Shown: positions 2,285 through 33,320 of the stretch, in pieces
How positions within the stretch are numbered: the stretch's first letter is position 1
How the letters are laid out: every line of letters starts with the position of its first letter
Source of the DNA: Acidobacteriaceae bacterium
GTDB taxonomy: Bacteria; Acidobacteriota; Terriglobia; Terriglobales; Acidobacteriaceae
NCBI GenBank assembly: GCA_030041515.1
Contig: JASHNS010000033.1
Coordinates: 1-46,616, forward strand
Length of the DNA: 46,616 nt
Direction: 5' to 3'
Made by a program: the position numbers and the translations under genes
The notes under the pieces: generated by a model
Databases searched by the model: none
Seen by the model: only the letters and a program-made list of their open reading frames with translations
What the model was told of the DNA's origin: nothing

Positions 2285-2773
2285 ATGGCTGAATTCACGC
2301 TGAAGGTGAACGGCTCGGAACACAGGGTAAACGCGGGCAGCGAGGAGAGCCTGCTGAGCGTCCTGCGGGATCGGCTGCAACTGACGGGGACAAAATACGG
2401 CTGCGGTGAAGGCCAGTGCGGCGCCTGCACCGTGCTGCTGGATGGGCAACCGGCGCTGGCGTGCATCACTCTGGCGTCCGGTGCGGCCGGCCAGAAGATC
2501 ACGACGATCGAAGGCCTGGAGCGGAACGGAGAGCTCTGCCACGTGCAGCAGGCCTTTCTCCATGAGGGTGCATTTCAGTGCGCGTATTGCACCTCGGGGA
2601 TGATCATGGCCGCGACCGGACTGCTCCACGCGCACCCGCACCCGAGCGAGGAGCAGATTCTGCAGGCGATGAACGGCAACATCTGCCGCTGCGGGACGTA
2701 TCCGCGGATCCTGGCGGCGATTCATCGCGCCGCACAGGCCGCGCCGACGGAGGCCGACGATGCCCGCGCGTGA
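2285..2773 (+). CDS. [2Fe-2S] subunit of a molybdenum hydroxylase (IorA/CoxS type)
   Basis: Small electron-transfer subunit of a xanthine-dehydrogenase-family enzyme, 162 aa, the usual length. The plant-type ferredoxin cluster has C40, C45, C48 and C60. The second, helical [2Fe-2S] domain has C99, C102, C134 and C136 in CAYCTSG and NICRCGTYP. It passes electrons from the molybdopterin subunit encoded next, whose start lies inside this gene (14 bp overlap, so translation is probably coupled). No FAD subunit gene is adjacent. That matches the two-subunit isoquinoline 1-oxidoreductase/aldehyde dehydrogenase type rather than the three-subunit CO or xanthine dehydrogenases. The physiological substrate cannot be read from the sequence. 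Confidence 0.92.
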   Translation: MAEFTLKVNGSEHRVNAGSEESLLSVLRDRLQLTGTKYGCGEGQCGACTVLLDGQPALACITLASGAAGQKITTIEGLERNGELCHVQQAFLHEGAFQCAYCTSGMIMAATGLLHAHPHPSEEQILQAMNGNICRCGTYPRILAAIHRAAQAAPTEADDARA

Positions 2774-4892
2774 GTTGCAGGACGGGTTTGCGACTGAAGC
2801 CGCGCAGCACGATGTCCCGCGGCAGCTGCGTGCGTTCGCCCTGGATCGGCGGGACTTTCTCAGGCTGTGCGGCGGTGGACTGCTGGTTTGCCTTGCTGGT
2901 GAGCCGTCGCTTGCGCAGGAATCCGGCGGGGGGTGGGGACGGCATCCGCTTCCGGAGCAGATCAGCGCGTGGCTCTTCATCGATGCGCACGGGAAGGTGA
3001 CGGTCTACACGGGGAAAGTGGAAGTGGGGCAGAACATTCGGACGTCGCTGGCACAGTCGGTGGCAGAGGAGCTGCGGGTGGCGTTCGACACGATCACGAT
3101 GGTGATGGGCGACACCGATCTGGTGCCGTGGGATGCAGGGACGTTCGGCAGCCGCACTACGCCGACCATGGGCCCCCAGCTGCGGAAGATGGCGGCTGCG
3201 GCGCGCAGTCTGCTCGTGGAGAAAGCGGCGCAACAGTGGAAGGTTGATCCCGCGACGCTGGTTGCAGCGAATGGGAACGTGACGAACCCGGCCGCTGCGC
3301 AGACGTTGAGCTACGGCGCGCTGACTCAGGGAGAGAAGCTGACGGCGACCGTGGACGGTGAGCTTCCGCTGACGCCGGCGACCGAGTGGAAGATTGCCGG
3401 AACTCCGGTGCCGAAGGCCGACGGACGCGATTTCGTCACCGGACGGCACAAATACCCGTCGGACATTGTGCGTCCGGGCATGCTGTACGGCAAGGTGGTG
3501 CGGCCTTCGGGCTTTCGGGCGACGCTGGTTTCCGTGGACACGAGCGCGGCGGAGAAGATGCCGGGCGTGCAGGTTGTGCGCGATGGGGATTTTATTGGAG
3601 TGGTCGCGCCGGACGGGTGGACGGCGGAGAAGGCTGCTGCGGCCATTGAGGCGAAATGGGCGGTGCCGGCGCAGATCAGCAACACAGAACTCTTCGCGGA
3701 CCTGAAGAAGCGCGCCGAGGGCGGGGCTGCGGCGGGCGGCGATATGGAGCAGGCGCTCGCGGGGGCCGAGATGAAGATGGACGCGGAATACACCATCGCG
3801 TATATCCAGCATGCCCCGCTGGAGCCGCGCGCGGCGGTGGCGGAGTGGGATGGTACGCACCTGACCGTGTGGACGGGCACCCAGCGGCCTTTTGGCGTCC
3901 GCGACGAGCTGGCGCAGGCCTTCCGTCTGCCGGGGAACCAGGTACGCGTACTGATGCCGGACATGGGTAGTGGCTACGGGGGCAAGCATTCGGGCGAATG
4001 CGCGGTAGAATGCGCGCGGCTCGCGAAGGCCGCGGGCAAGCCGGTGAAGCTCGTGTGGACGCGCGAGGAGGAATTCACCTGGGCCTATTTCCGGCCTGCC
4101 GGCGTCATCTCCATTCGCAGCGGCGTCCGGCATGACGGGACGCTTATTGCCTGGGCGCAGACGAACATCAACTCCGGACCATCCGGCATCGACACGCCAT
4201 ACAACGTGACGGCGAAGGCGGGCGACTTCCGCGAGGTGGAGGATCCGCCTCTGCGCCAGGGGTCGTACCGCGCCCTGGCCGCGACGGCGAACCACTTTGC
4301 GCGGGAAAGCCACATGGACGATCTGGCGCACGCGGTGAACATGGACCCGCTGGAATTCCGGCTGAAGAATCTCACGGATGCGCGGCTGCGCGCCGTCTTG
4401 CAGGCGGCGGCGCAACGTTTTGGATGGGGCAGGCAGGCTTCATCCCCGCAACGCGGATTTGGGATGGCCTGCGGCACGGACAAAGGCGGCTATGTGGCGG
4501 CCTGCGCGGAAGTGGAGATCGATGCTGCGAGGAAGGTGCGGGTTCGCCGCGTGGTGCAGGCGTGGGAATCGGGCGCGATCGTAAATCCCGACGGGCTGCG
4601 TAACCAGACGATGGGCGCAATTGTGCAGGCGATGGGCGGCGGGTTGTTTGAGGAGATCCGGTTTGCCAGCGGCAAGATCCTGAATCCGCTGTTCTCGGAA
4701 TACCGCGTGCCGCGATTCCGCGATACGCCGGAGATCGAAGTCGTTCTTCTCGACCGGAAGGATATTCCTTCAGCCGGAGCGGGCGAGATTGGGATTGTCG
4801 CGCTGGCGCCGGCTGTCGGGAATGCGATTTTCGCGGCGACCGGCGAGCGGCTGCGCGCGATGCCGATGGCCGCGGGGAAGTTCAGAGCGTAG
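2760..4892 (+). CDS. molybdopterin-binding catalytic subunit of a molybdenum hydroxylase (IorB type, Tat-exported)
   Basis: Large catalytic subunit, 710 aa. The N terminus carries a twin-arginine signal (DRRDFLRLCGG at about 29-39, followed by a hydrophobic stretch), so the complex should be exported folded to the periplasm. The small subunit has no signal and would be carried along. Molybdenum-cofactor motifs are recognisable: GSGYGGKHSGE near 400, QGSYRALAATANHFARES, and the near-C-terminal AGAGEIG, in which E676 corresponds to the catalytic glutamate. It hydroxylates an aldehyde or N-heterocycle using water as oxygen donor. It overlaps the small subunit by 14 bp and ends 7 bp before the convergent hypothetical gene. 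The Tat-bearing single-polypeptide layout is typical of the IorB group; the substrate is unknown. Confidence 0.9.
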   Translation: MPARELQDGFATEAAQHDVPRQLRAFALDRRDFLRLCGGGLLVCLAGEPSLAQESGGGWGRHPLPEQISAWLFIDAHGKVTVYTGKVEVGQNIRTSLAQSVAEELRVAFDTITMVMGDTDLVPWDAGTFGSRTTPTMGPQLRKMAAAARSLLVEKAAQQWKVDPATLVAANGNVTNPAAAQTLSYGALTQGEKLTATVDGELPLTPATEWKIAGTPVPKADGRDFVTGRHKYPSDIVRPGMLYGKVVRPSGFRATLVSVDTSAAEKMPGVQVVRDGDFIGVVAPDGWTAEKAAAAIEAKWAVPAQISNTELFADLKKRAEGGAAAGGDMEQALAGAEMKMDAEYTIAYIQHAPLEPRAAVAEWDGTHLTVWTGTQRPFGVRDELAQAFRLPGNQVRVLMPDMGSGYGGKHSGECAVECARLAKAAGKPVKLVWTREEEFTWAYFRPAGVISIRSGVRHDGTLIAWAQTNINSGPSGIDTPYNVTAKAGDFREVEDPPLRQGSYRALAATANHFARESHMDDLAHAVNMDPLEFRLKNLTDARLRAVLQAAAQRFGWGRQASSPQRGFGMACGTDKGGYVAACAEVEIDAARKVRVRRVVQAWESGAIVNPDGLRNQTMGAIVQAMGGGLFEEIRFASGKILNPLFSEYRVPRFRDTPEIEVVLLDRKDIPSAGAGEIGIVALAPAVGNAIFAATGERLRAMPMAAGKFRA

Positions 4893-4899
4893 CGATGGG

Positions 4900-5580
4900 T
4901 CAGTGCTGCGTGGGCAGGATCTTGTCAAAGGGAATCTGGAAAAAGAAGAGATCCCGGCCGTCCGCGTTGTGCAGCCTGCTGAGCGTGAGGCTGGCGCCGC
5001 GCAGCGGATCGGGGCCGAGCCCGTTGATGTCGTAAAAAAGATAGCCGGCACGCGTAGTATGAGGTTCCACGGCGAGCGCGGCGTACTCGAATTCGTCAAA
5101 GTCCGATTCGACTTTACCCGTCTTGCTCTTGCTGTGCGTGTGGAGCTTGATCGGGCCCACGGGGATGGTGTGCCCCTGGTTGGGACCGGGATAGCCGATG
5201 CGGCGCTCTACGTCCTCGGGCTCGGCAGCCTGAATGCGAACCCCGGAGGAATCGACGAAGAGGATGCGCGCGTCAGAGAGCGAGATGGGGCGATCGCCGA
5301 AGTTGGTGATGATCACGCGGATGGGAATGAAGCCGTAGCGGAGGTAATCGACTTTGAAGAACCTGCAGTCGTCGCGGCTGAGGCAGGGAACGGCGGCGAC
5401 GGCGACCTGCTCTTTCTGGTGGTAATCGACGGCGAGATACGAGGTGGCGGATTTTGCGGGGGGCGGCCCGTGATCGGCGGCAAAGGCGGGCGCGGCTGCG
5501 CAGGCCGCGACGGCGAACCACGTGAGCATCCGCCTGGAATGGCGCGGTGACAGCGGAGCGAACAGCGGCCGGGAACGCAT
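4900..5580 (-). CDS. hypothetical secreted protein
   Basis: Protein of 226 aa that I do not recognise. It starts MRSRPLFAPLSPRHSRRM, then a hydrophobic segment ending AAAPAFA-AD, a good Sec signal with cleavage after AFA. The mature part contains a short Cys pair (PCLSRDDCRFF) and beta-rich segments such as RYGFIPIRVIITNFGDRPISL, which suggest an immunoglobulin-like or DUF4352-like fold. The start was chosen because a GAGG lies 12 bases upstream; an in-frame ATG four codons earlier (base 5592) is an alternative. The gene is convergent with the molybdenum hydroxylase and divergent from waaA. Confidence 0.75.
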   Translation of the reverse strand: MRSRPLFAPLSPRHSRRMLTWFAVAACAAAPAFAADHGPPPAKSATSYLAVDYHQKEQVAVAAVPCLSRDDCRFFKVDYLRYGFIPIRVIITNFGDRPISLSDARILFVDSSGVRIQAAEPEDVERRIGYPGPNQGHTIPVGPIKLHTHSKSKTGKVESDFDEFEYAALAVEPHTTRAGYLFYDINGLGPDPLRGASLTLSRLHNADGRDLFFFQIPFDKILPTQH

Positions 5581-5631
5581 CACGATTATCATCCTCGCAT
5601 AGGACTTTGATTTCAGGAACTTCGTGAGCGG

Positions 5632-6894
5632 ATGCTGATCGGATACAGCCTGGCGCTGCTGCTGGCTCTGGTGTTGGGTGCGCCCTGGTGGCTGCTGCGG
5701 ATGGCCACCAGCGGAAAATATCGCGAAGGCCTGGGGGAGCGTCTGGGGCTCGTGCCGACGCGCGTCCGCAGGTGGCTGAATGGCGCGCCGGTCATATGGA
5801 TTCATGCGGTTTCCGTGGGCGAGGTGCTGGCGGCGAGCCGGCTGATCGAAGAGCTGACGCAGCGCCTGCCGGAGTGGCAGATCGTCCTCTCGACCACGAC
5901 CCGGACCGGGCAAAAGCTGGCGCGGGAGCGCTTTGGCGAGAACCGGGTTTTTTACTTTCCTCTGGATTTTGCTTTTGCAGTCCGGGCGTGGCTGCGCGTC
6001 CTGCGGCCACGGCTCCTGATTTTGGCGGAGACGGAGTTCTGGCCGCGCATGCTGGCTGAGTGCCGGCGCGCAGACGTACTGGTGGCGGTGGTGAACGCGC
6101 GGATTTCCGACCGGTCGTGGCCTCGCTACCGGCGCCTGAGGAGGCTTTGGCAGCCGCTGCTCATTGGCCTGGCCGCCGTGCAGGCACAATCGGAGCTGGA
6201 TGCGGAGCGGCTGCGAGCGCTGGGCGTGCACAACGTTCAGGTGGGCGGGAATTTGAAGTTTGACGTGCGCGCCACCCGGCCGGCCGCGGTGACAGAACGG
6301 CTGCGAGAGTTCTTGCCGGGGAGCCTCGGCGTGCTGGTTTGCGGATCGACGCTGGCGGGCGAGGAGGAAATGCTGCTGGAGGCTGTGCCGGAAGGCGTCG
6401 TGACCATCCTGGCGCCGCGCCACCCCGAGCGCTTTGCCGACGTTGCGCAGCTGCTGCGGCGTCGCGGCGAGCGGTGGGTTCGGCGCACGGAGTGGATGCA
6501 GGCTCCGGCCACGCTGGAGCCCGGCACCGTCTTTCTGCTCGATTCGGTGGGCGAGCTGGCCAGCGTCTACTCGCTGGCTGACGTTGCGTTTGTTGGTGGC
6601 AGCCTGGTACCGGCCGGTGGACACAATCCCCTGGAGCCGGCGCAATTCGGCATTCCCGTACTGATGGGCGAGAGCTTCGAGAATTTTCGCGGCATCGTGG
6701 AGGCGTTGCGCGCAGGGGAGGCGATCCGGATCGTGCGGCGGGACGAACTTGGGGCGGTTTTGGCTGCGGCTCTGGACGATCGGGCCGGGGCGCGCGCGAT
6801 GGGCAGGCGTGGTCTGGAGGTTTTCGAGAGGGAAGCAGGCGCAACAGCGCGAGCCATGGCGGCGATTCTGGAACTGCTGGCGGTGCGGGCATGA
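5632..6894 (+). CDS. waaA: 3-deoxy-D-manno-octulosonic acid (Kdo) transferase
   Basis: Inner-membrane glycosyltransferase (GT30) that adds Kdo from CMP-Kdo to the lipid A precursor. At 420 aa it has normal length. The N-terminal helix (residues 3-23) is the membrane anchor. The conserved HAVSVGEV has the catalytic-base glutamate E64, and LAETEFWPRM (131-140) is the family signature. The C-terminal half has the nucleotide-sugar motif around GGSLVPAGGHNPLEPAQFG. It is the first gene of a tight operon: its last codons overlap the lpxK start as ATGA. The kdsB gene that makes the CMP-Kdo donor lies about 25 kb away in the same window. Confidence 0.96.
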   Translation: MLIGYSLALLLALVLGAPWWLLRMATSGKYREGLGERLGLVPTRVRRWLNGAPVIWIHAVSVGEVLAASRLIEELTQRLPEWQIVLSTTTRTGQKLARERFGENRVFYFPLDFAFAVRAWLRVLRPRLLILAETEFWPRMLAECRRADVLVAVVNARISDRSWPRYRRLRRLWQPLLIGLAAVQAQSELDAERLRALGVHNVQVGGNLKFDVRATRPAAVTERLREFLPGSLGVLVCGSTLAGEEEMLLEAVPEGVVTILAPRHPERFADVAQLLRRRGERWVRRTEWMQAPATLEPGTVFLLDSVGELASVYSLADVAFVGGSLVPAGGHNPLEPAQFGIPVLMGESFENFRGIVEALRAGEAIRIVRRDELGAVLAAALDDRAGARAMGRRGLEVFEREAGATARAMAAILELLAVRA

Positions 6895-7865
6895 ACCGCG
6901 CGCTGCTGCCGCTGACGCCACTCTATGCCGCGGCCGTAGCGGCGAAGAACCTGGCCTACGGCCGAAAATGGGCACCCGTCGACCGGCTGCGTTGCCCGGT
7001 CGTGAGTGTCGGCAATCTTTCTGTCGGCGGCTCAGGCAAGACGCCGCTGACCCTCCGGCTGGCGGAGTTGCTGCGCGATCAGGGCGTGGCCGTCGACGTG
7101 CTCTCGCGCGGATACGGGCGGCAATCGGAAGCGACAGCGAAGGTAGATCCCGGCGGCTCCGCGGAGATCTTCGGCGACGAGCCGCTGCTGATCGCGCGCG
7201 CGGGAATTCCGGCATTTGTTGGCGACAGCCGCTACGAAGCGGGTTTGGTGGCGGAAAAGGAAACGGCGCGGGTGCATCTGCTGGATGACGGCTTCCAGCA
7301 TCGTCAGCTTGCGCGGGATGTGGATGTTGTCGTTCTGCATCGCACCGACTTTGCGGAGCACCTGCTGCCCGCAGGGCGATTACGCGAGAACTTCGGCGCA
7401 CTGCGTCGGGCGCACCTGATCGCGATGCGCGAAGAAGACCGCGAGCTCGAGCCTGAGCTGCGGCATCGCGGCTGCGATTTGCCCATCTGGTGGATGCGCA
7501 GGACCGTCGAATGGCCTGAAGCGAGCCGAGCTCTGGTCTTCTGCGCGATCGCCAGACCCAACGAGTTCTTCGAGGAGCTGCGCCGGCAGGGCTGCGATGT
7601 GCTGGAGACGCGCGCGTGGCGGGATCATCACGTGTATACGGCCGGCGACCTCGCTGAGCTGGCTGTGCTGTCGCAGCGGTACGGAGCGGAGACGCTGCTG
7701 ACCACCGAAAAGGATTTCGTTCGCCTGCGGCCGGAGCAGAGGCAGCAACTCGAAGCCGCGGCGCCGTTGCGGACGGCAAAACTGACGCTGCGGCTGGCCG
7801 ACGAACCAGCAGCGGTGGGGTCGCTGATGGCGCGGCTGGGCGCAGCCATCCCCATGAGAAAATAA
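6891..7865 (+). CDS. lpxK: tetraacyldisaccharide 4'-kinase
   Basis: Phosphorylates the 4' position of the tetraacyl disaccharide to give lipid IVA, using ATP at the inner membrane. It is 324 aa, normal for the family. The Walker A loop is VGNLSVGGSGKTP (about 40-52) and the lipid/ATP-handling motif LDDGFQHR (131-138) carries the conserved Asp pair. The start overlaps the waaA stop by 4 bp (ATGA), so translation is coupled. Biochemically LpxK acts just before WaaA, which fits the pairing. Confidence 0.96.
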   Translation: MNRALLPLTPLYAAAVAAKNLAYGRKWAPVDRLRCPVVSVGNLSVGGSGKTPLTLRLAELLRDQGVAVDVLSRGYGRQSEATAKVDPGGSAEIFGDEPLLIARAGIPAFVGDSRYEAGLVAEKETARVHLLDDGFQHRQLARDVDVVVLHRTDFAEHLLPAGRLRENFGALRRAHLIAMREEDRELEPELRHRGCDLPIWWMRRTVEWPEASRALVFCAIARPNEFFEELRRQGCDVLETRAWRDHHVYTAGDLAELAVLSQRYGAETLLTTEKDFVRLRPEQRQQLEAAAPLRTAKLTLRLADEPAAVGSLMARLGAAIPMRK

Positions 7866-7870
7866 GGAGA

Positions 7871-8920
7871 TTGGGCACAACAGCAAAGCCTCTGCGTCTG
7901 CTCGTCGTGCGGCTGGGAGCGATGGGCGACATCCTCCACTCATTGCCCGCGGTGACCGCTCTGCGCCAGGCTCATCCTGAATGGTTCATCGGCTGGGCGA
8001 TTGAGCCGCAGTGGCGTGGGCTGTTTTGCGCGAACGGCTGCGAGCCGCGCACTCCGGGCATGCCGCTCGTGGATCAGCTGCACCTGGTTCCGGCCAAACA
8101 GTGGGCACGCCGGCCGCTGAGTCCCGCCACGTGGAAGGACATGGCGCGCGTTCGCCGCGAAGTCCGCGCGACGCATTACGACGTTGCTGTGGAGTTGCAG
8201 GGAGCAGTGCGGGCAGCGGTGGTGGCGCGATGGGCGAGAACCGGCCGGATTGTGGGCGAAGAAGAACCGCGTGAGCGGATCGCGCGCTGGATGTTCAACG
8301 AGCGCGTGACGACGCGGGGCGCGCATGTGATCGAACAATCTGTGGAAGTGGCCAATGCCATCGCAGGCGACCATTTGCCGATTCCGCTGCCGCTTCTGCC
8401 GCGGGATCCGGCCGCAGATGCGCGGGCCGCGGAATTGCCGCAGCCACTGGTGCTGCTGAGCCCGGGTGCGGGATGGGGCGCGAAGCGATGGCCGCCGGAA
8501 CGGTACGGCGAAGTTGCGCGCCGGCTGGCCATGGAGGGATACAAAGTCGTGGTGAACTGCGGACCCTCGGAGGAGGACCTGGCACGGCGAATCGAAGAGG
8601 GCAGCGGAGGCGCAGCCACGGTACTGGCGCTGGAGATGGCAGAACTGATCGCCGTCACACGGTGCGCGCGCCTGGTGGTTGCCGGCGACACGGGGCCGCT
8701 GCACCTGGCCTCTGCGCTGGGCAAGCCGGTGGTGGCGATCTTCGGGCCCACGGACCCGGCGCGCAATGGACCCTTCCATTGCTCCAGCCGCGTGCTGCGG
8801 CATCCGGAGAGCGTGCGCGACCACACGCGCCGCAGCGAGCCGGAAGCCGGACTGCTGACCATCACGGCCGAGGATGTGACGGCGGCTGCCCTGGATCTTC
8901 TGCGGGAGACGCGCTCGTGA
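7871..8920 (+). CDS. heptosyltransferase-type glycosyltransferase (GT9)
   Basis: GT9 family, 349 aa, expected to add ADP-heptose or a related sugar to the LPS inner core. The N terminus has LLVVRLGAMGDILHSLPAV, the classic GT9 opening. The C-terminal half has LSPGAGWGAKRWPPERY, then AGDTGPLHLASALGKPVVAIFGPTDP, which contacts the sugar nucleotide. The start is a problem: no ATG exists in frame before the conserved opening, and the best candidate is TTG at 7871, only one base after AAGGAG. An unusually close SD or a non-standard start further in is possible. It follows lpxK by 5 bp. Confidence 0.88.
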   Translation: MGTTAKPLRLLVVRLGAMGDILHSLPAVTALRQAHPEWFIGWAIEPQWRGLFCANGCEPRTPGMPLVDQLHLVPAKQWARRPLSPATWKDMARVRREVRATHYDVAVELQGAVRAAVVARWARTGRIVGEEEPRERIARWMFNERVTTRGAHVIEQSVEVANAIAGDHLPIPLPLLPRDPAADARAAELPQPLVLLSPGAGWGAKRWPPERYGEVARRLAMEGYKVVVNCGPSEEDLARRIEEGSGGAATVLALEMAELIAVTRCARLVVAGDTGPLHLASALGKPVVAIFGPTDPARNGPFHCSSRVLRHPESVRDHTRRSEPEAGLLTITAEDVTAAALDLLRETRS

Positions 8921-9462
8921 CGTGGAATCGCGTAGCGCGGCGGATCCGCGTTCCCCTGGGTTTTGCGTTTGCCGTTTTCTTTCTGTGGCTGGCGCGGCCC
9001 ACGCCGGTGTTTCTCGCCGCAAGCCTGGCGCTGGTCGTTCCGGGGCTGTGGCTGCGCGGATATGCGTCGGGGTACGTGAAGAAGAACGCGGAACTCACCG
9101 TGACGGGTCCATACGCACATACGCGCAATCCGTTGTATCTGGGGTCGATGATGATCGCCTTTGGCTTCGCGCTGGCCTCGCGGAGCATCTGGATTGCTGG
9201 GGTGCTTGTTGTGCTCTTTTGGGTCATCTATGTGCCGGTGATCCGTTCTGAGGAACAATATTTGCGATCGGTTTTTCCCGAGTTCGATGACTATGCGGCC
9301 CGGGTCCCGCGGCTGCTCCCGCGGCTTACTACGGTAACCGGTACGGGGGCGCCTGCGACTTTTTCGGGAGCCCTGTACCGCAAGCACCGCGAATACAATG
9401 CCCTGATGGGGTCTGCGGCCCTGTATGCGGCTCTCATTCTGAAGTGGAAGTTTTTTAGATAA
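8917..9462 (+). CDS. isoprenylcysteine carboxyl methyltransferase (ICMT/PEMT)-like membrane methyltransferase
   Basis: 181 aa, starting at a GTG that overlaps the previous stop (GTGA). Hydrophobic segments lie at about 12-27, 30-46, 78-95 and 97-112. The signature around GPYAHTRNPLYLGSMM and the later EEQYLRSVFPEFDDYAARVPRLLP are hallmarks of the ICMT/phospholipid methyltransferase superfamily, which binds SAM at the membrane face. Its tight coupling to the LPS genes suggests that it methylates a lipid or envelope component, but no substrate can be named. The usual C-terminal motif is followed by about 40 extra residues ending in a short hydrophobic stretch. Confidence 0.85.
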   Translation: MTWNRVARRIRVPLGFAFAVFFLWLARPTPVFLAASLALVVPGLWLRGYASGYVKKNAELTVTGPYAHTRNPLYLGSMMIAFGFALASRSIWIAGVLVVLFWVIYVPVIRSEEQYLRSVFPEFDDYAARVPRLLPRLTTVTGTGAPATFSGALYRKHREYNALMGSAALYAALILKWKFFR

Positions 9463-9477
9463 GGATCAGCACCCATC

Positions 9478-10305
9478 TTGCGTTCCCTGTGTTCTTTCGA
9501 CCCACGCGCTGCACGCAGGCTGCCGGGAATTCTCCGAGCGGCAGCGCTGGCGTGTGTTGCGGCGCCGCTGCTGGTTGCAGCGCAAATTCCGGCCGCGAAG
9601 CTGCCCACGCCGCCGCTGCCGCCGCCTTTGCCCAGTTACAGCTTTCCCGCGCATGAAACGCTCACCTATTCGGTGGACTGGCGCGTCTTCCCGGCGGGAA
9701 CGACGACGCTGCATCTGGAACAGCAGGGCGACATAGAAAAGGTGACGGCCACGGCAGATACGCTGGGCGCCATCAACCTCATCTACCGTGTCAGCGATCG
9801 ATACGAGTCCTCCTTTAACCGGACAACAGGATGTTCTTACGGTTTCGCGAAGCAGATCCAGGAGGGCCGCCGCCGCGTGAACACGGATCTGACCTTCAAT
9901 TATGCGCAGGGGACACGGCTGCTGACCGACCGCAATCTGGTGAAGAACACCAGCAAACAGGAAACCGCGCCCGTGGGCCCGTGCGTGACGGACCTGCTCT
10001 CGGCGATTTTCTATCCGGCCTCGCAGTCGCTGGTGCCGGGCACTCGATTCCAGGTGCCCCTCGGCGACTCGCTGCACACCGTGGGCGTCAGCATGAACGT
10101 GGAAGCGAAGGAGATCGTGCAGACGCCGCTGGGGACATATCACACAGTCCGCGTCCAGCCCGTGGCATCGAGCGGCGTAGTGAAGGCACGAGGCAACATC
10201 TGGATCTGGTATACGGACGACGCGCGGCACATCCCCGTGCAGATGCGGGCCAGGCTTTTCTGGGGAACGATCACGTTCCAATTGACGGCGATGAGCGACA
10301 AGTAG
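9478..10305 (+). CDS. DUF3108 domain secreted protein
   Basis: 275 aa from a TTG start. A signal-peptide-like stretch (ILRAAALACVAAPLLVAAQ) is followed by a Pro-rich linker and a domain starting around FPAHETLTYSVDWRVFPAGTTTLHLEQQGD, characteristic of DUF3108, a beta-rich periplasmic or outer-membrane-associated family. It ends LFWGTITFQLTAMSDK, also typical of the family. It follows the ICMT-like gene by 15 bp and may be the last gene of the LPS operon. Function unknown; the family is thought to be structural and lipid-related, but that is only inference here. A start codon further in is possible. Confidence 0.8.
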   Translation: MRSLCSFDPRAARRLPGILRAAALACVAAPLLVAAQIPAAKLPTPPLPPPLPSYSFPAHETLTYSVDWRVFPAGTTTLHLEQQGDIEKVTATADTLGAINLIYRVSDRYESSFNRTTGCSYGFAKQIQEGRRRVNTDLTFNYAQGTRLLTDRNLVKNTSKQETAPVGPCVTDLLSAIFYPASQSLVPGTRFQVPLGDSLHTVGVSMNVEAKEIVQTPLGTYHTVRVQPVASSGVVKARGNIWIWYTDDARHIPVQMRARLFWGTITFQLTAMSDK

Positions 10306-10320
10306 CCGCCTCGGACCGGC

Positions 10321-10611
10321 TTAGTGGATGCGGAAGCGTTCGCGCATCAGGCGCTGCAGGCGGGGCCGATAGATCAGGTCAAAGGCGAGCTCCTTGCCCG
10401 GGAACATCGCCAGAGCTGCGCGCCGCGTGTCAGCCACCATCTCCGATGCTTCATCGACCGTCATCGACGGATCCTGGCTGATGACGGACATCACCATATT
10501 GACCATGATCTGGAGACGGCGCAGGCGTCGTTGTTCGTCCTGGAGTTCTTCCGGGGATTGCGGGACGTGCTGGGGCTGGGAAGGGTAGTCGGAGTCGGGT
10601 TGCGAACCCAT
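10321..10611 (-). CDS. small conserved hypothetical protein
   Basis: 96 aa, not recognised. The first 25 residues are polar and Pro/Gln-rich. The rest is probably helical: a charged stretch ELQDEQRRLRRLQ, then MVNMVMSVISQDPSMTVDEASEMVADTRRAALAMFPGKELAFDLIY and a basic end LQRLMRERFRIH, broken here by the description. The ATG was chosen because GGAGGG lies about 10 bases upstream; an in-frame GTG six codons earlier is the alternative. No transmembrane segment or Cys motif. It is convergent with the DUF3108 gene, 15 bp away. Confidence 0.65.
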   Translation of the reverse strand: MGSQPDSDYPSQPQHVPQSPEELQDEQRRLRRLQIMVNMVMSVISQDPSMTVDEASEMVADTRRAALAMFPGKELAFDLIYRPRLQRLMRERFRIH

Positions 10612-10705
10612 GTGGTCGGGGCCCTCCACGGGCAGGATCGTACACCGAATAAGACTCGCGGCGCAGCGGAAAAGATGCGCGGCCCAGGGTCGAGCGGGAA
10701 AAGTG

Positions 10706-11449
10706 TCATTGCTGCAGCGGGTTGCGAATGAAAGGCAGGTCCTGGAATTCGGCGCGCGCCTGCTGAACGAAGGCTTCGGCTTCGGCGCTCGTCATGCGGA
10801 GGCACTGATCTCCGGCCCAGGAGCGGCCCAGCCATCGCGGTGCGCTGGCCAGCCAGTGTTGGCGAGCCGGGGTGTCTGCACGCTGTGGGTCCAGGGCGGA
10901 AGCGGCGATCTTCGCCAGCCCGGGCAACGTGCGCGGGGCCTCGGCTTCCACGGACCACTCCACACGCGTCGTACCAGGATCGGCCCACGGCGCCGGAACG
11001 AAAACTGCGCCCCGCTGGATAAAGGCGGCCGCCGGCAACGCCTCGGAGGGCGGGAGGGAGAGGAAATCCGGCTGCACGCCGCGCTCGGTCAGCTCGGGCA
11101 GCTTCGCCTGAGGATGGGCGGCGACGCAGACCAGGACGGGGCGCCGCTGCCGGATTTCGTTCTTCAGGATGCGAAGCGCTTCGCTCAGATCCGCGACCAG
11201 AAAATCGGAGAGGCCGTGGCGCAGCCCTTCGCGCAGCAATTCAGGTTCGGGATCGACGCAGAGCGCGGCGGCTCCGGTGAGTGCGGCGGCGATCAGGACG
11301 GAGATTCCCTCGGCGTCGAAGCCGATCCGGAGCAGAAGCTTGCCGCCCAGGAGCTTGCCCGGCGCGGAATCGACGCCGTCGCCTTTACGCGCCAGGCGCG
11401 CGAGCGCAAGGTACTGGTCGTGAACTTCGCCAAGATTGGGCAGATGCAA
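10706..11449 (-). CDS. stand-alone urocanase-like domain protein
   Basis: 247 aa from a TTG that sits 9 bases after GGAGG; an in-frame GTG at 11470 is possible. The segment from GKLLLRIGFDAEGISVLIAAALTG to DLSEALRILKNEI and LPELTERGVQPDFLS follows, element by element, the central Rossmann domain of urocanate hydratase (remembered counterpart: GKWVLTAGLGGMGG...AGACS, DLDDALARI, LPELVKRGVRPDMVTD). The N- and C-terminal core of normal urocanases (about 550 aa) is absent, and the glycine-rich NAD loop is changed to GFDAEG, so ordinary urocanase activity is unlikely. It lies directly downstream of CoA-transferase subunit B, probably in one transcript. Function unknown. Confidence 0.6.
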   Translation of the reverse strand: MHLPNLGEVHDQYLALARLARKGDGVDSAPGKLLGGKLLLRIGFDAEGISVLIAAALTGAAALCVDPEPELLREGLRHGLSDFLVADLSEALRILKNEIRQRRPVLVCVAAHPQAKLPELTERGVQPDFLSLPPSEALPAAAFIQRGAVFVPAPWADPGTTRVEWSVEAEAPRTLPGLAKIAASALDPQRADTPARQHWLASAPRWLGRSWAGDQCLRMTSAEAEAFVQQARAEFQDLPFIRNPLQQ

Positions 11450-11453
11450 GCCC

Positions 11454-12143
11454 TTACACCTCCATCTCACGGAGCGCAGGGCTCACTTTCAGCCTGGCTT
11501 CGGTCGCGCGCTGGACGTCGTCCACGCTGAGTCCCGGTGCAATTTCTTCCAGCACCAGGCCCTCCGGCGTGACGCGAATCCAGGCCATTTCCGTAGCGAT
11601 GGTTTCCACCACGCGAACGCCTGTGAGCGGCAGCGTGCATTTCTTCAGGATCTTCGGCGCACCCTCCTTTGTGGTGTGCTCCATGGCGACGATCACCCGG
11701 CGCGCGCTGGCTACCAGATCCATCGCGCCGCCCATGCCCTTCACCATCCTGCCGGGAATCATCCAGTTGGCGAGCGTGCCTTGCTCGTCCACTTCCATGG
11801 CCCCGAGCACGCTCAGGTCGATATGGCCACCGCGGATCATCGCGAAGGAATCCGCCGACGAAAAATACGAGGCGCCCGGCAGCGCCGTGACCGTCTCTTT
11901 GCCGGCGTTGATGAGGTCAGGGTCTTCTTCCCCCGCGCGCGGGTAGGGCCCGACGCCGAGCATCCCATTCTCAGACTGCAAAACGACCTCGATGCCCGGC
12001 GGCACGTGGTTGGCGATGAGGGTGGGCAGGCCGATGCCCAGGTTCACGTAAAACCCGTCGCGCAGTTCCCGGGCCACGCGGCGTACGATCCGCTCGCGTT
12101 TGGCTTGCGCCGGGCTTCCAGGGGAATTCGATAGAGTAGTCAT
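11454..12143 (-). CDS. scoB: 3-oxoacid CoA-transferase subunit B
   Basis: 229 aa, the usual length for the beta subunit of succinyl-CoA/acetoacetyl-CoA transferases. [15 protein letters not shown] and [14 protein letters not shown] are the family signatures; the Glu in SENG is the residue that forms the acyl-CoA thioester. [23 protein letters not shown] follows. It activates acetoacetate or a related oxoacid with CoA. It needs a partner A subunit, and none is encoded next to it: upstream is a divergent membrane-protein gene, downstream the urocanase-like gene. The start at 12143 has AGGA 9 bases upstream; a second ATG at 12149 is possible. Both lie within a few bases of the start of the divergent gene. 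Confidence 0.9.
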
Positions 12144-12450
12144 GGTCATGCGTCCTGCCGTTTTCAATATACGAGCAAGCTCCCTGCTCCGGGGAACGGC
12201 ACTGGTTGTCGGCAGCCTGATGATGGCCCTGGCGTGCGTGGGGTTCCCCGATGTGCACGCGACCGCGTGGATGCTGGTACCGGCGGGCGGCGCCCTCGTC
12301 GGCACCTTTGAGACCACCCGCTGCCTCCGGCGCACCTGGAGTTTCTATCACGGCGGGGTGCTTCTGCTGCTCTACGCCGATATTCTGGTGCTCGCGGTGG
12401 TCTTCTTCCTGTTGCTCTATCCGTGGGCGCAATGGCTGCAGAGGACCTGA
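12142..12450 (+). CDS. small hypothetical membrane protein
   Basis: 102 aa, not recognised. Three hydrophobic segments are visible: about 14-32 ([19 protein letters not shown]), 40-54 ([15 protein letters not shown]) and 72-95 (a Leu/Val-rich helix ending [11 protein letters not shown]). Codon third positions are GC-rich like neighbouring genes, which supports real coding. The start is ATG at 12142 (weak AGAG upstream) or 12148. Either way it abuts or overlaps the start of the divergent CoA-transferase gene, leaving no intergenic space. It is convergent with mtnA 20 bp downstream. Confidence 0.6.
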
Positions 12451-12469
12451 GCCGGGACTTACCCCGCGA

Positions 12470-13525
12470 TCAATCGGCGGCAGCGCCCGCGGATTCCAGC
12501 AGCGACTCGGCATAGGGCGGCCGCAACACGCCCCGCTCGGTAATGATGGCCGTGACGTATTGTGCCGGGGTCACGTCAAAGGCTGGGTTCTCGATGCCCA
12601 CGCCGTACGGCGTGAGCTGCTTGCCGGCGTGGTGGGTGACTTCCCGCGCCGCGCGCTGCTCAATGGGGATGGCGTCGCCGCTGGGCGTCCGCAGGTCGAT
12701 CGTCGACCACGGCGCCGCCACGTAGAAGGGAATTCCGTGCTCCTTCGCCAGGATCGCAACCCCGTAGGTGCCGATTTTGTTGGCGACATCGCCATTGGCG
12801 GCGATGCGGTCGGCTCCGACAATCACGGCGTGGATTTTGCCTTGTCGCATCAGGCTGGCGGCCATGTTGTCGCACAGGACCGTGGTCGGGATATGGTCGT
12901 GGAGCAGCTCCCAGGCGGTCAGCCGAGCCCCCTGCAGGAAGGGGCGGGTCTCATCGGCGAAGACATGCAGTTCGTGGCCCCGCTCGACGGCCGAGCGAAT
13001 CACCCCCAGCGCCGTCCCATAGCCGCACGTGGCCAGCGCGCCGGCGTTGCAGTGGGTGAGGACACCGCCCAGACGGGGCAGCAACGCCGCACCATAGGCG
13101 CCCATCTGCCGACAGGCGGCAATGTCTTCGTCGTACATGTGCTGCGCTTCAGCGATGAGGGCATCGCGCACGGAAGCGACGGTGGCGCCCGGCCGGTTGG
13201 CCTGGTCGTCGAAAACGCGTTTCATCCGCTCAATTGCCCAGAACAGATTGACCGCCGTGGGGCGGGTCTCGCCCAGCGTGCGGCACATTCCCTCAAATTC
13301 GGCGGCGAGCGCGGCTACGGTGGAGGCGGAGCTTGTCTTCACCCCGAGCGCGAGGCCCATGGCAGCTGCGACACCGATAGCCGGAGCGCCGCGAACCACC
13401 ATAGTAACGATAACTTCAGCTACCTCTTGATAACTGGTGGCAAGTGTGTAAACTTCTTCGAGTGGGAGTCGGGTCTGGTCGAGAAAGCGGACGCCCTGGG
13501 GAGTCCATTCAAGAGTCGGTATCAT
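12470..13525 (-). CDS. mtnA: S-methyl-5-thioribose-1-phosphate isomerase
   Basis: Methionine salvage enzyme that isomerises the aldose MTR-1-P to the ketose MTRu-1-P. 351 aa, normal length. The two catalytic residues of the family are present: Cys159 in [11 protein letters not shown] and Asp239 in [26 protein letters not shown] near residue 44 is the N-terminal signature. A GGAG lies just before the start. No other salvage genes (mtnB, mtnC, mtnD, mtnK or mtnP) are next to it. The same window has a SAM-riboswitch locus for sulfur-amino-acid metabolism near 28 kb. Confidence 0.95.
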
Positions 13526-13623
13526 TGTCTCCAGTGTAACGGGTGAAGGCCTTTCATTGGTTCAGCCGTCTGCCTCGCCTGTAGGATGCAGACGATCAAT
13601 TGGAAGGTCCTGTAAGTTCAGTC

Positions 13624-13652
13624 ATGACAGAACCCAAGACCGGTGGTACTAT
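13624..13652 (+). promoter_or_regulatory. predicted sigma-70 promoter for the zinc-ribbon gene
   Basis: ATGACA (13624-13629), a 17-base spacer and TACTAT (13647-13652), followed by a T-rich stretch. Transcription would begin near 13659, giving an untranslated leader of about 150 nt before the zinc-ribbon gene. In the leader I see a 16-base stretch at 13720-13735 matching the left arm of the acsA terminator hairpin at 15 of 16 bases, but no known riboswitch fold. The remaining gap between mtnA and this promoter holds nothing else I can identify. Confidence 0.5.
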
Positions 13653-13807
13653 CATTTTTTTGTTTGGGCCGTTGCAAAGCCAAATGTCAATTCCTGCAAA
13701 TTTCTGCGGCTTTTTAAGGCAGGACGGCCCTCCGGTGTAAAGTTGGCGCGCGTTGGAGAAGCGGCATCCTGTGAGAGCCCCCCGGCTGCGACTGGGTCGA
13801 GAAAAAA

Positions 13808-14047
13808 ATGAAGACGAAACTGGTTTGCCCTGGTTGTGGGCATGAACAATTGGCGCGCATCGCGAGACGGGGCTTTCTGCGGAAGAAGGTGTATCCCCTG
13901 TTGGGTTTCTATCCCTGGGAATGCGCTATGTGCCGCAAAGAGTTTCTGATTCGCAAGCGGGGAGCCGGCTATCGGCGCGTGAGGTCCGCTTCGCAGGCGG
14001 CCGGAGAGCAGGTCGTCTCGTCGGAGAACGGGCGCAGCGGACGCTGA
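13808..14047 (+). CDS. small zinc-ribbon protein
   Basis: 79 aa. Two CxxC knuckles, C7-P-G-C10 and C39-A-M-C42, separated by 28 residues with a basic helix-like stretch (RIARRGFLRKKVYPLLGFYPWE), form a treble-clef or zinc-ribbon fold that probably binds Zn2+. The C-terminal 30 residues are basic and then polar (RKRGAGYRRVRSASQ), which would suit nucleic-acid or ribosome contact. It is a single gene with its own promoter and terminator. No specific function can be assigned. Confidence 0.75.
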   Translation: MKTKLVCPGCGHEQLARIARRGFLRKKVYPLLGFYPWECAMCRKEFLIRKRGAGYRRVRSASQAAGEQVVSSENGRSGR

Positions 14048-28071: not shown

Positions 28072-28100
28072 TTGCATCGCGAAGCAACGTGTGATATCTA
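28072..28100 (+). promoter_or_regulatory. predicted promoter of the SAM-riboswitch locus
   Basis: TTGCAT (28072-28077), a 17-base spacer and TATCTA (28095-28100). Predicted transcription start is near 28107, about 30 nt before the P1 stem of the riboswitch. The rest of the 412-bp gap between the membrane-protein gene and the threonine-synthase gene is taken up by the riboswitch and its expression region. Confidence 0.5.
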
Positions 28101-28138
28101 ATGAGTATTCAAGTTTGCTCCTCAAGAGCGAGCCTGAA

Positions 28139-28250
28139 TTTCATGCAGAGTGGCTGAGGGACGGGCCCTGTGACGCCACGACAACCGGCCTGAGCAATTC
28201 GGGATCACGGTGTCAACTCTCGCCCGCCGTAACAAGCGGGGTACATGAGA
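28139..28250 (+). promoter_or_regulatory. SAM-I (S-box) riboswitch
   Basis: P1 is formed by TTTCATG (28139-28145) and CATGAGA (28244-28250), seven pairs including a G-T. AGAG (28147-28150) and the kink-turn core GAGGGAC (28156-28162) with GGGCCC follow, as in the S-box. P2 is GTGGC/GCCAC (28150-28154/28175-28179). The pseudoknot-side ACAACC (28181-28186) is present, with A for the first G of the consensus GGCAACC. P3 is CCTGA/TCGGG, GGTGTCAACTC follows, and P4 is CCCGC/GCGGG (28223-28227/28236-28240). It should sense S-adenosylmethionine and repress the downstream genes when SAM is abundant. Confidence 0.93.
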
Positions 28251-28345
28251 TTCGGGGTGCAGCTGGATCGCATCTCGCAAAATCCTCGTAGTGAGAAGTG
28301 CAAGCGTAGCTCGACGTCACGCGCCCGTATATTCTTCCGACGCCG

Positions 28346-28361
28346 CTCTCGAAACCGAGGG
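28346..28361 (+). promoter_or_regulatory. hairpin sequestering the SD of the threonine-synthase-like gene
   Basis: CTCTCG (28346-28351), loop AAAC, then CGAGGG (28356-28361): six pairs that hide the SD GAGG lying 6 bases before ATG 28367. No T-run terminator is visible between the aptamer and the gene, so the riboswitch may act on translation by controlling this hairpin, or on transcription through a structure I cannot resolve by eye. Confidence 0.45.
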
Positions 28362-28366
28362 CTGGA

Positions 28367-29635
28367 ATGGCTGCTGCTTACGAACTGCGATGCCGGGAAT
28401 GCGGGAAGCGCTTCGATAACGCCCCGCTGTCGATCTGCGACGAGTGCTTTTCTCCGCTGGAAGTGAAATGCGACCTGGACGCGGCAAAACGCGCATTCAC
28501 GCGCGAGAAGATTGCCGCTGGCCCCACGAGCATGTGGCGCTATCAGGCGCTGCTGCCGGTTCCGGACGGTTACAAGCCGACCACTCCGGCGGGTTGGACG
28601 CCGCTGCTGCGCGCGCCGCGGCTGGCGGACCGCATCGGCGCGAAGAATCTCTGGATCAAGAATGACGCCGTCTGCCTGCCTACGCTGAGCTTCAAGGATC
28701 GCGTGGTCGCCGTGGCGCTGGCCAACGCCCAGACCTTCGGATTCGATACCGTGGGGTGCTCGTCGACCGGCAATCTGGCGAACGCAGTGGCGGCGCAGGC
28801 GGCCCGGCTGGGGCTGAAGACCTACATTCTCGTTCCCGCCGATCTGGAGCCGGCCAAGATCCTGAACACGCAGGTCTACGGCGCCACGCTGGTGCGCATC
28901 GACGGCAACTACGACCACGTGAACCGGCTCTGCTCGCAGATTGCCGATCGCTACAACTGGGGATTTGTGAATGTGAATTTGCGGCCGTACTACGCCGAGG
29001 GCTCGAAGACCGTCGGTTTCGAGATTGCGGAGCAACTGGGCTGGCGGCTGCCCGACAACGTCGTTGTGCCGATGGCGGGTGGTTCGCTGATCACGAAGAT
29101 CCGCAAGGCCTTCAAGGAGCTGATCGAGCTGGGCCTGGTTGAGGAGAAGGAGGTGCGTTTCTTCGGAGCGCAGGCAACGGGCTGCTCGCCCATTGCTGTG
29201 GCCGTGAAGACGGGCGCCGACTCCATAGAGCCGCAGCGCCCGCGGACGATTGCGCGCTCGCTGGCGATTGGCAATCCCGCCGACGGCGTTTACGCCGCGC
29301 GAGCCATCCGCGACAGCGGGGGATGGGCCGAGGACGTCTCGGACGTGGAGATCGTCTCCGCGATCCAGGAGCTGGCCGAGACCGAGGGAGTCTTTACGGA
29401 AACGGCGGGTGGCGTGACCACAGCGGTGACGGCGCGGCTCTACGCGCATGGCCGCATCCAGCCCGAAGAGCTGACGGTAAGCTGCATTACCGGCAACGGG
29501 CTGAAAACGACCGATGCGCTGCACGGGGCCTACGAGCAGGAGGCGGCGATCCGGCCGCGGCTGACCGACTTCGAAACGTATCTGGAAGACCGCAGTGAAG
29601 AGCGGGAACTGGTGGGAGGGTCAAGTGTCCGTTAG
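28367..29635 (+). CDS. thrC: threonine-synthase-family PLP enzyme, SAM-riboswitch controlled
   Basis: 422 aa fold-type II PLP enzyme. The N-terminal zinc ribbon has C9, C12, C24 and C27 (CREC, CDEC), as in archaeal-type threonine synthases. The Schiff-base lysine is K110 in LPTLSFKDR, and the phosphate-binding loop is SSTGNLANAVAA (132-143). SCITGNGLKTTDAL is the C-terminal cofactor-ring contact. Canonically it converts O-phosphohomoserine to threonine. The upstream SAM riboswitch and the overlapping CysO-like carrier gene (11 bp overlap) suggest instead, or in addition, a sulfur-transfer reaction such as homocysteine formation from O-phosphohomoserine and a carrier thiocarboxylate. That role is inference; ordinary threonine synthase remains possible. 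Confidence 0.85.
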   Translation: MAAAYELRCRECGKRFDNAPLSICDECFSPLEVKCDLDAAKRAFTREKIAAGPTSMWRYQALLPVPDGYKPTTPAGWTPLLRAPRLADRIGAKNLWIKNDAVCLPTLSFKDRVVAVALANAQTFGFDTVGCSSTGNLANAVAAQAARLGLKTYILVPADLEPAKILNTQVYGATLVRIDGNYDHVNRLCSQIADRYNWGFVNVNLRPYYAEGSKTVGFEIAEQLGWRLPDNVVVPMAGGSLITKIRKAFKELIELGLVEEKEVRFFGAQATGCSPIAVAVKTGADSIEPQRPRTIARSLAIGNPADGVYAARAIRDSGGWAEDVSDVEIVSAIQELAETEGVFTETAGGVTTAVTARLYAHGRIQPEELTVSCITGNGLKTTDALHGAYEQEAAIRPRLTDFETYLEDRSEERELVGGSSVR

Positions 29636-29999
29636 AGTTTTGTTGCCGAATGCCTTTCAAAAGCATACGAACGGGACACGGGAAATCCGGTCCGAAGCAG
29701 GAAACCTGCCGCAGCTGATCACCGACATCGAGACGCAGTTTCCCGCGCTCAAATCGCATCTCCGCGATGACCAGGGGCAGGTGCGGCGCTTCATCAACTT
29801 CTACGTCAACGAGGAAGACATTCGCTTTCTCGGAAACGAGAAGTACGCGTTTCAGGAAGGCGACGAGGTGCTGGTGATCCCGTCCATCGCAGGAGGGTGC
29901 TGCGCGCACGGCGGGACGCGCTTTTCGGGCGTAAAACCTCGCGGGCTGTGTGCCTGTTGTTCGTATTGCGGACAGGAAGAGTGCATCTGCGGGGACTAG
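29625..29999 (+). CDS. CysO/MoaD-like sulfur carrier with a cysteine-rich C-terminal extension
   Basis: 124 aa from GTG (SD GGGAGGG 4 bases upstream, inside the preceding gene). Residues 1-91 are a ubiquitin-like beta-grasp carrier very like Mycobacterium CysO (VRRFINFYVNEEDIRFLG, GDEVLVIPSIAGG). Carriers of this type must end in Gly-Gly to be adenylated and thiocarboxylated; here the Gly-Gly is G90-G91 and 33 further residues follow, with eight cysteines (C92, C93, C109, C111, C112, C115, C120, C122). A JAMM-type protease could remove the tail. The tail itself looks metal-binding. No protease or E1-like activating gene is in this window. Confidence 0.88.
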   Translation: MSVRVLLPNAFQKHTNGTREIRSEAGNLPQLITDIETQFPALKSHLRDDQGQVRRFINFYVNEEDIRFLGNEKYAFQEGDEVLVIPSIAGGCCAHGGTRFSGVKPRGLCACCSYCGQEECICGD

Positions 30000-30056
30000 C
30001 TTCGCGAGCGGCAGCGGACGGCGCCGGTGCATCTCACTCGAACAAGGAGAGATGCT

Positions 30057-30197
30057 ATGGCCGATACGAAAAAATGCGCGAACCCCGCCTGCAGCTGTGT
30101 TCCGCCCCAGGGAGAGAAATTCTGCAGCCCGCATTGCGAGGCGTTGAGCAAAACGCCGGAAGTCGTATGCCAGTGCGGCCATCCGGGGTGCAGCTAG
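30057..30197 (+). CDS. small metallothionein-like protein
   Basis: 46 aa, ATG 30057 with a strong SD (AAGGAGAG, 5 bases before ATG). It has eight cysteines (7, 12, 14, 23, 27, 38, 40, 45) and two histidines (26, 42). The pattern CANPACSCVPP, FCSPHCE and CQCGHPGCS follows bacterial SmtA-type metallothioneins, which bind Zn2+ or Cd2+ (or Cu+). It lies 57 bp after the CysO-like gene with no terminator between, so it is likely on the same transcript, next to a protein that itself has a Cys-rich tail. It is short, but the SD and motif make it convincing. Confidence 0.85.
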   Translation: MADTKKCANPACSCVPPQGEKFCSPHCEALSKTPEVVCQCGHPGCS

Positions 30198-32719: not shown

Positions 32720-32730
32720 GCGGAGACACT

Positions 32731-32955
32731 ATGAGGACGACGGTAACGCTGGACGACGAGCTGCTGAAGAAGGCGCAGAGATATACGGAGATCAAGGAAA
32801 AGAGCGCTCTGATGAACGAGGCGCTCCAGGCGCTTGTGGAGCGTGAGGCGGCGCACCGGCTCATCGCGCTGGGAGGCACCATGCCCGGACTCAAAGCCCC
32901 GCCGCGTCGCAGGCCGCCAGCGACTCTCCGCCGGCGGAAATCGAGGGCCGCGTGA
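32731..32955 (+). CDS. vapB: VapB-type antitoxin
   Basis: 74 aa. MRTTVTLDDELLKKAQRY is a ribbon-helix-helix DNA-binding start, followed by KEKSALMNEALQALVEREAAHRL, and then a Pro/Arg-rich C terminus (PGLKAPPRRRPPATLRRR) that would wrap the toxin. The start has GGAG 5 bases upstream and lies 12 bp after the operator. The stop overlaps the toxin start (GTGA), so antitoxin and toxin are translationally coupled. Confidence 0.88.
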   Translation: MRTTVTLDDELLKKAQRYTEIKEKSALMNEALQALVEREAAHRLIALGGTMPGLKAPPRRRPPATLRRRKSRAA

Positions 32956-33320
32956 TCCTCGTCGATACTTCGGTCTGGGTCGATCATTTCCATCGCCCAG
33001 AGCCGGAACTCGAGGCGCTGCTGCGGGCCAGGAAGATCCTGGTTCATCCTTTTGTGAGGGGAGAAGTCGCGCTCGGATCATTCCCCAACCGCGTCGCCTT
33101 GCTGGATTATCTTGGCGGGCTATATCGCGGAAAAGTGGCGAGCGACGATGAAGTGCTGCAGCTCATCGAGGACTGGGGGCTCACGGGAACGGGAATTGGC
33201 TACATGGATGCTCACCTGCTCGCGTCCGTCCTGCTGACCTCCGGCGCGCGCCTGTGGACGCGGGACCGGGCGCTGCGCAAAGTGGCGCGGCAGCTTTCGC
33301 TGGATGCGGGGCTGAAGTAG
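32952..33320 (+). CDS. vapC: VapC-type PIN-domain toxin
   Basis: 122 aa PIN-domain ribonuclease from a GTG start overlapping the antitoxin stop. The acidic metal-binding residues are D5 (MILVDTSVW), E38 (RGEVALG), D86 ([10 protein letters not shown]) and D105 (LWTRDRAL), all in place, so it should be active. VapC toxins cut tRNA or rRNA when antitoxin is lost. The module sits between kdsB and acsA as a compact 0.65-kb cassette. Confidence 0.93.

Follow-up and report, generated by a model that had tools for sequence, protein, structure and literature searches.

A SAM-I riboswitch, a threonine-synthase-like enzyme and a sulfur carrier in an Acidobacteriaceae genome: a likely MetM/MetO-type route to homocysteine

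Introduction

Here, we focus on a stretch of 46,616 nucleotides from an Acidobacteriaceae bacterium (assembly GCA_030041515.1, contig JASHNS010000033.1, positions 1 to 46,616), called the window below. On its forward strand, an S-adenosylmethionine (SAM) riboswitch of class SAM-I precedes a gene for a threonine-synthase-family pyridoxal phosphate (PLP) enzyme, here called metM-like, and this gene overlaps a second one, metO-like, that encodes a CysO-type sulfur carrier (Table 1). A preliminary description of this DNA proposed that the enzyme uses O-phosphohomoserine and the carrier thiocarboxylate to make homocysteine, in a methionine route controlled by the SAM switch. Genomic tests, namely a second thrC, no convincing MetX, a conserved unit and near-exclusion of the conventional enzymes, agree with that proposal. 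The route is, however, not new: most likely, and we hold this with considerable confidence, the unit is the MetM/MetO route to homocysteine already known from Streptomyces.

Table 1. Features of the locus. Positions are those of the window, except in the last row, whose feature lies on contig C42 of the same genome.
Feature	Position	Strand	Basis
Possible promoter: TTGCAT 28072-28077, 17 bases, TATCTA 28095-28100, extended TG	28072..28100	+	read by eye
SAM-I riboswitch aptamer (RF00162)	28138..28251	+	full-model match over gathering score
Leader, aptamer to start codon	28252..28366	+	no terminator by scan; folding no better than shuffles
metM-like gene, 422 aa, threonine-synthase-family PLP enzyme	28367..29635	+	PF00291, TIGR00260, clade, PLP-lysine motif
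Ribosome binding site GGGAGG of carrier gene	29614..29619	+	by eye
metO-like CysO-type carrier gene, 124 aa from GTG 29625	29625..29999	+	PF02597; CysO best by profile and fold
33-residue cysteine-rich tail past diglycine, motif CCSYCGxExCxC	29898..29996	+	kept in close relatives
Small cysteine-rich, metallothionein-like open reading frame, neighbor outside the conserved system	30057..30197	+	PF02069 below cut-off
C42 island, locus L027 (G000:C42:59001-78000)	752-13978	n/a	MetA, MetY and neighbors, 57% GC

The riboswitch and the two genes

The riboswitch named in the preliminary description is a full-length match to RF00162 (79.2 bits, gathering score 44.4; E 4e-17) and the sole Rfam match above gathering in the window. 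With 150 of 320 candidates scored, no second SAM-I match turned up in the genome, which measures 4.77 Mb and is 99.93% complete. Neither a terminator scan nor a comparison of folding with shuffled sequences revealed an expression platform in the leader. A terminator-like hairpin occurs at the matching place in relatives L130 and L137 and does not occur in L122, the metM locus of Edaphobacter lichenicola. The promoter claimed earlier fared less well. Its TTGCAT and TATCTA elements can be picked out by eye; the match is weak, a consensus scan gave no promoter at the locus, and close relatives keep the elements only in part. An inverted repeat (ATTCA...TGAAT and GCTC...GAGC, by eye) at 28105-28137, just 5' of the aptamer, is almost identical in the closest relatives.

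The enzyme belongs to the threonine synthase family, as had been claimed, with 235.7 bits to PF00291 (PALP) and 278.5 bits to the threonine synthase profile TIGR00260 (cut-off 167.1). Against solved threonine synthases it reaches up to 171.1 bits; the genome's ThrC on contig C101 reaches up to 277.5. Its PLP-lysine motif is PTLSFKDRVV, replacing NPTGSFKD. We placed the enzyme in a tree of 114 rows from a quick search, with Shimodaira-Hasegawa-like approximate likelihood-ratio test (SH-aLRT) support only. The window enzyme falls within a 66-row clade (SH-aLRT 87) whose members come from Acidobacteria, cyanobacteria including Microcystis, Nonomuraea, Nitrospirota, Planctomycetes and others. The sister clade consists of 28 acidobacterial rows (SH-aLRT 97), and the two clades separate jointly on a branch of length 1.15 with support 100. 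The PLP-lysine motif type follows this grouping: P[TS]LSFKDR[VL]V is present in at least 48 of the 66 rows of the window's clade (PTHSFKDRVV in Nonomuraea), P[TS][LFC]SYKDRVV in 28 of 28 sister-clade rows, and NPTGSFKD in 7 of the 11 ThrC-like rows with lower scores, a set in which the ThrC of this genome appears twice. The window enzyme neither groups with the genome's thrB-linked ThrC nor carries NPTGSFKD. It is 56.9% identical to the homolog of Microcystis novacekii (L194) and 53.8% identical to that of Nonomuraea. Judged from its sequence, the enzyme is most likely an O-phosphohomoserine-dependent homocysteine synthase.

The longest open reading frame of the carrier spans 29595-29999, and the likeliest start is the GTG listed in Table 1, which overlaps the enzyme stop by 11 bases. 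The overlapping CysO-like carrier of the preliminary description is well supported: the protein matches the ThiS family PF02597 (E 1.3e-9), and CysO is the top PDB match of a profile made from 48 carriers (6.3e-30). A model built from the 48 carriers has a predicted local distance difference test score (pLDDT) of 79.0, while a single-sequence model is poor (pLDDT 46.3); the best fold matches of the former are CysO structures (1.6e-8). The window carrier is 46.2% identical to that of Microcystis novacekii L194.

Relation to known systems

The closest known system is that of Streptomyces albulus. According to PMC12172450, Hasebe et al. 2024 (doi 10.1128/aem.01247-24) discovered the Streptomyces homocysteine synthase MetM, which converts O-phosphohomoserine to homocysteine, and S. 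albulus metM is preceded by a SAM riboswitch. The window shares with that system the threonine-synthase homolog, the upstream SAM riboswitch and a carrier gene corresponding to metO. It differs in its probable acidobacterial origin and in the cysteine-rich tail that its carrier bears past the diglycine. The same paper describes a metO-similar gene adjoining the Microcystis homolog and threonine synthase plus deaminase activities of Microcystis aeruginosa ThrC in vitro (PMC12172450). The Microcystis enzyme lies in the same clade as the window enzyme; it reportedly has no SAM riboswitch upstream.

Two other carrier systems invite comparison. CysO and CysM of Mycobacterium tuberculosis (3dwg, 3dwm) have the same carrier fold and diglycine, whereas the partner in the window is ThrC-like rather than CysM-like and its expected product is homocysteine. 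In Wolinella succinogenes, the carrier end is reportedly trimmed by a JAMM-type protease, and the enzyme is said to be of the MetY type and to use O-acylhomoserine. There, too, a carrier thiocarboxylate feeds homocysteine, in a protein-thiocarboxylate methionine route (Krishnamoorthy and Begley 2011, as cited in PMC5764234). Neither type of partner adjoins the window carrier: the cysM-like gene of this genome lies beside a different carrier, on contig C119, and MetY lies on contig C42. Among the open-licence papers listed in our searches, none concerned a MetM/MetO-type system in Acidobacteria. Judged by these comparisons, the kind of system is already known, switch included, and the window is a new, well-supported example.

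Conservation of the unit

The preliminary description suggested looking for the riboswitch, the thrC-like gene and the carrier together in related genomes, and the combination is indeed kept. In a draw of 297 genomes from the phylum, 70 match the window enzyme at 410 bits or more, and the next match is at 287 bits. Of these, 36 have a SAM-I switch no more than 400 bases upstream of the gene, and a further 5 have one at 1.3-2.4 kb (41 of 70 in total). By the tree, the 70 genomes divide into 42 of clade 1, which is the window's clade, and 28 of the sister clade.

We also examined 81 named loci, consisting of Nonomuraea and 80 loci from a genome collection; the latter were the best among 588 or more relatives, which biases them toward close ones, and the best among them is 90% identical. 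In 76 of the 81, across many phyla, a carrier gene with the same orientation as metM is no more than 500 bases away. In a separate set, the acidobacterial loci L061-L098, 30 of 38 have a carrier gene at a distance of about 300 bases or less. A SAM switch is found upstream in 31 of the 81 named loci, using a model made from 32 acidobacterial switches and with some contigs starting near the gene. The switch-bearing loci include a planctomycete, a kiritimatiellid, a record titled Deltaproteobacteria and Nonomuraea, and an Rfam run on 15 named loci gave a switch in 4 (L171, L173, L196 and L201). The Nonomuraea record (L201, NZ_LT559118.1) is 11.85 Mb long and labeled plasmid I; by size, it is chromosome-like.

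Two arrangements are informative about the parts involved. Specifically, four loci of family f18 (L087, L082, L085 and L090) combine, in this order and in a single run, the switch, a MoeB/ThiF-type E1, a cysteine-desulfurase-family protein, metM and the carrier, with family assignments run on L087 and read by motif in the other three. In L173, the carrier at 5275-5784, which follows a SAM riboswitch and metM, is fused to a C-terminal NIL domain, which would make its diglycine internal. NIL domains occur in methionine ATP-binding cassette (ABC) transporters.

The sister clade behaves differently. Carriers accompany it in 2 of 22 loci (L099-L120), adjacent in L107 and 2.5 kb off in L114, and another ThrC-like gene lies nearby in five loci (L105, L110, L116, L119 and L212).

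Methionine and threonine genes elsewhere in the genome

A second thrC, sought on the advice of the preliminary description, is present on contig C101, directly before thrB and without a riboswitch (thrC 295 bits, cut-off 167.1; thrB 232.1 bits, cut-off 168.25). The expected lack of MetX and MetY is borne out in part. The genome contains no convincing MetX: its two TIGR01392 matches, on C105 (129.1 bits) and C39 (113.8 bits), were rejected, strong matches in the phylum draw reaching about 250-465 bits. No control genome reaches the TIGR01392 cut-off of 500, which therefore gives no guidance. Both proteins start with a signal-peptide-like stretch (by eye), and PRK06489 is the better match for the C39 protein (477.1 bits). 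Contig C42, by contrast with this expectation, carries MetA beside MetY. Finally, C119 holds a cluster of cysM-like, JAMM, cysO-like and moeB(rhodanese) genes.

The distribution of these enzymes provides a genomic test. The window's family, f1, has 31 genomes here, of which one, G112 with a partial match, was left out of the counts. MetX was called at 215 bits or more to TIGR01392, a limit set in this analysis, MetA by PF04204, and MetY by TIGR01326 at E 1e-120 or lower, a threshold that does not cover MetZ or cystathionine-synthase types. Of 24 family genomes with metM, 22 lack MetX, MetA and MetY at these thresholds, the exceptions being G273 (MetX and MetY) and the window genome (MetA and MetY). 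Among the family genomes without metM, 5 of 6 have MetX and MetY. The association has a Fisher p of 8e-4. Across the phylum draw, MetX or MetA occurs in 5 of 42 clade-1 genomes compared with 93 of 255 others (p 0.0013). Shared descent makes such p-values too small. The sister clade shows no exclusion (MetX, MetA or MetY in 7 of 28 versus 100 of 269; p 0.22). What was observed directly is the set of parts, the way they are arranged and conserved, the clade and this complementary distribution. The sixth family genome without metM, G210, is 99% complete and has no strong metM, MetX, MetA or MetY match, which suggests a methionine auxotroph or an alternative route.

A proposed route and its alternatives

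From these parts, we infer the catalytic steps, the carrier trimming and the regulation. Low SAM would permit expression of the operon, the direction being that of the SAM-I class. A JAMM protease would trim the carrier to its diglycine, a MoeB/ThiF-type E1 would adenylate it, and sulfur would be loaded as the thiocarboxylate; the C119 cluster probably helps in this maturation and loading. In the system of Hasebe and colleagues, the MetO thiocarboxylate is reportedly the sulfur donor. Homoserine kinase would make O-phosphohomoserine, the presumed substrate of the threonine-synthase-like enzyme, which would use carrier sulfur instead of water to yield homocysteine. Homocysteine would then be methylated to methionine.

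Several observations weigh against this route. The enzyme passes TIGR00260, a threonine synthase profile. S. albulus MetM is absent from the tree, and the Nonomuraea row sits on a long branch. As encoded, the carrier diglycine is internal, with 33 residues beyond it. No SAM-I match was found anywhere in 29 of the 70 phylum-draw genomes, under strict filters and with 12 candidates per genome, which weak switches may escape. The exclusion has limits: besides the effect of shared descent, there are the 5 clade-1 genomes that hold MetX or MetA, and TIGR01392 matches of up to 148.8 bits in other family metM genomes (not G273) were taken as other hydrolases. Moreover, C6 carries a cystathionine gamma-lyase/synthase-like gene, whose best models fall under their cut-offs, so that transsulfuration is possible. 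The MetA (378.9 bits, cut-off 358) and MetY (611.9 bits, cut-off 495.1) of C42 complete this list, and with them present the MetM-like route may not be the only one in the genome. The preliminary description held that a sole threonine synthase together with a complete conventional methionine route would count against its proposal; MetA and MetY are present, yet a second thrC exists.

That C42 pair underlies the alternative that survives best, in which the strain obtains its homocysteine mainly from MetA and MetY while the window unit is minor or condition-bound. This alternative, which is compatible with the MetM-like enzyme working as proposed, draws on the fact that both C42 proteins pass curated cut-offs. 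We nonetheless think it unlikely. Guanine plus cytosine (GC) content is 57% around the pair, against 59-66% in other loci fetched from the genome (62.5% in L011, on the same contig), and the neighboring genes encode a P450, a PLP decarboxylase, an AMP-binding enzyme and a class III aminotransferase. No SAM switch accompanies the pair, and within the 31 family genomes the window's is the sole one with a MetA match. The C42 island resembles a secondary-metabolism cluster, possibly with its own homocysteine supply, and it is possible that it makes homocysteine.

Markedly less probable is that the window enzyme is simply another ordinary threonine synthase, with SAM control balancing the aspartate family and the carrier serving something else. 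The TIGR00260 score fits this alternative, as does the threonine synthase activity in vitro of Microcystis ThrC (PMC12172450). Likewise, some genes of the sister clade (L099-L120 and L212-L217, with the SYKDRVV motif), several of them under SAM switches, lie beside hom, thrB or lysC, and in the window's own clade L095 and L096 have a SAM switch and no carrier nearby, L095 lying beside asd and lysC. Against these stand the standard thrC-thrB pair elsewhere in the genome, which has no switch, the carrier beside the gene in nearly all named loci, the altered PLP-lysine motif and the exclusion with MetX/MetY in the family. Production of cysteine from O-phosphoserine by a CysM/CysO-like system is scarcely credible. 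In its favor, the carrier most resembles CysO, a protein of the cysteine pathway. Against it, a separate cluster of this kind is present on C119, the enzyme is ThrC-like and not CysK/CysM-like, and SAM control and MetX/MetY replacement point to methionine. The MetM/MetO route thus remains the reading that we favor.

The carrier tail

The tail of the window carrier contains CCSYCGQEECIC. Its motif CCSYCGxExCxC is retained in the window, L061, L121 and L149, with differing linker lengths, while L139 and L124, likewise close relatives, have zero or two residues past the diglycine (GG). Over the 12-codon tail core, 7 synonymous codon changes and 1 nonsynonymous change separate the window from L061. 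For the other five pairs, the ranges are 2-5 synonymous and 2-3 nonsynonymous changes, and for the carrier body (76 codons) they are 22-31 and 13-18. On these few codons, the tail core is constrained about as much as the folded body, and by this measure it is a real, lineage-limited element. Model confidence in the tail is low (10-residue means of 40-49).

Extensions past the diglycine are common. A diglycine pattern picked out 108 carriers, one from each locus, with the C119 carrier included and L107, L158, L161 and L163 missed. Of these carriers, 50 stop at GG itself and 58 carry 1-80 further residues. A JAMM gene is present in 19 of the 19 genomes with an extended carrier for which there are genome data. 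For carriers that end at GG, JAMM is present in 9 of 13 genomes, and the 4 without are the f18 genomes, a single lineage. JAMM is also common elsewhere (103 of 255 genomes without clade-1 metM). Thus, the co-occurrence is consistent with tail trimming and is no proof of it. The tail would have to be removed for the carrier to work, perhaps by the JAMM protease of the genome. We speculate further, while considering it improbable, that the CCSYCGxExCxC tail is a metal- or persulfide-sensing lock, one state of which blocks JAMM from freeing the diglycine.

Neighboring genes

The metallothionein gene that had been assigned to the operon does not hold up. The open reading frame scores 10.4 bits against PF02069, under the cut-off of 33, and is a resemblance only. 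It was rejected as part of the unit: no similar open reading frame occurs in the other 142 of 143 sources scanned (L061-L120, L121-L201, L024 and the window; frames of at least 35 aa, many flanks being short). Farther along, at 32722-33320, two overlapping small genes look by eye like a VapBC-type antitoxin and a PIN-domain toxin; NCBIfam gave no match for the pair at E 1e-8.

Outlook

This analysis extends the known system by its acidobacterial members, by the exclusion with MetX/MetY within one family, by f18 operons that include E1 and desulfurase, and by the tail. The near-exclusion of metM and MetX/MetY in a single family is in itself a genomic test. Given that genes of this clade can pass a threonine synthase profile, automatic reconstruction can miss a methionine pathway. 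The f18 loci, which place E1, cysteine desulfurase, enzyme and carrier under one SAM switch, suggest the required set of parts and make reconstitution straightforward. The conserved tail raises a testable question about the control of sulfur-carrier maturation: were the lock real, sulfur flow to methionine would be gated at carrier maturation, in addition to the SAM riboswitch.

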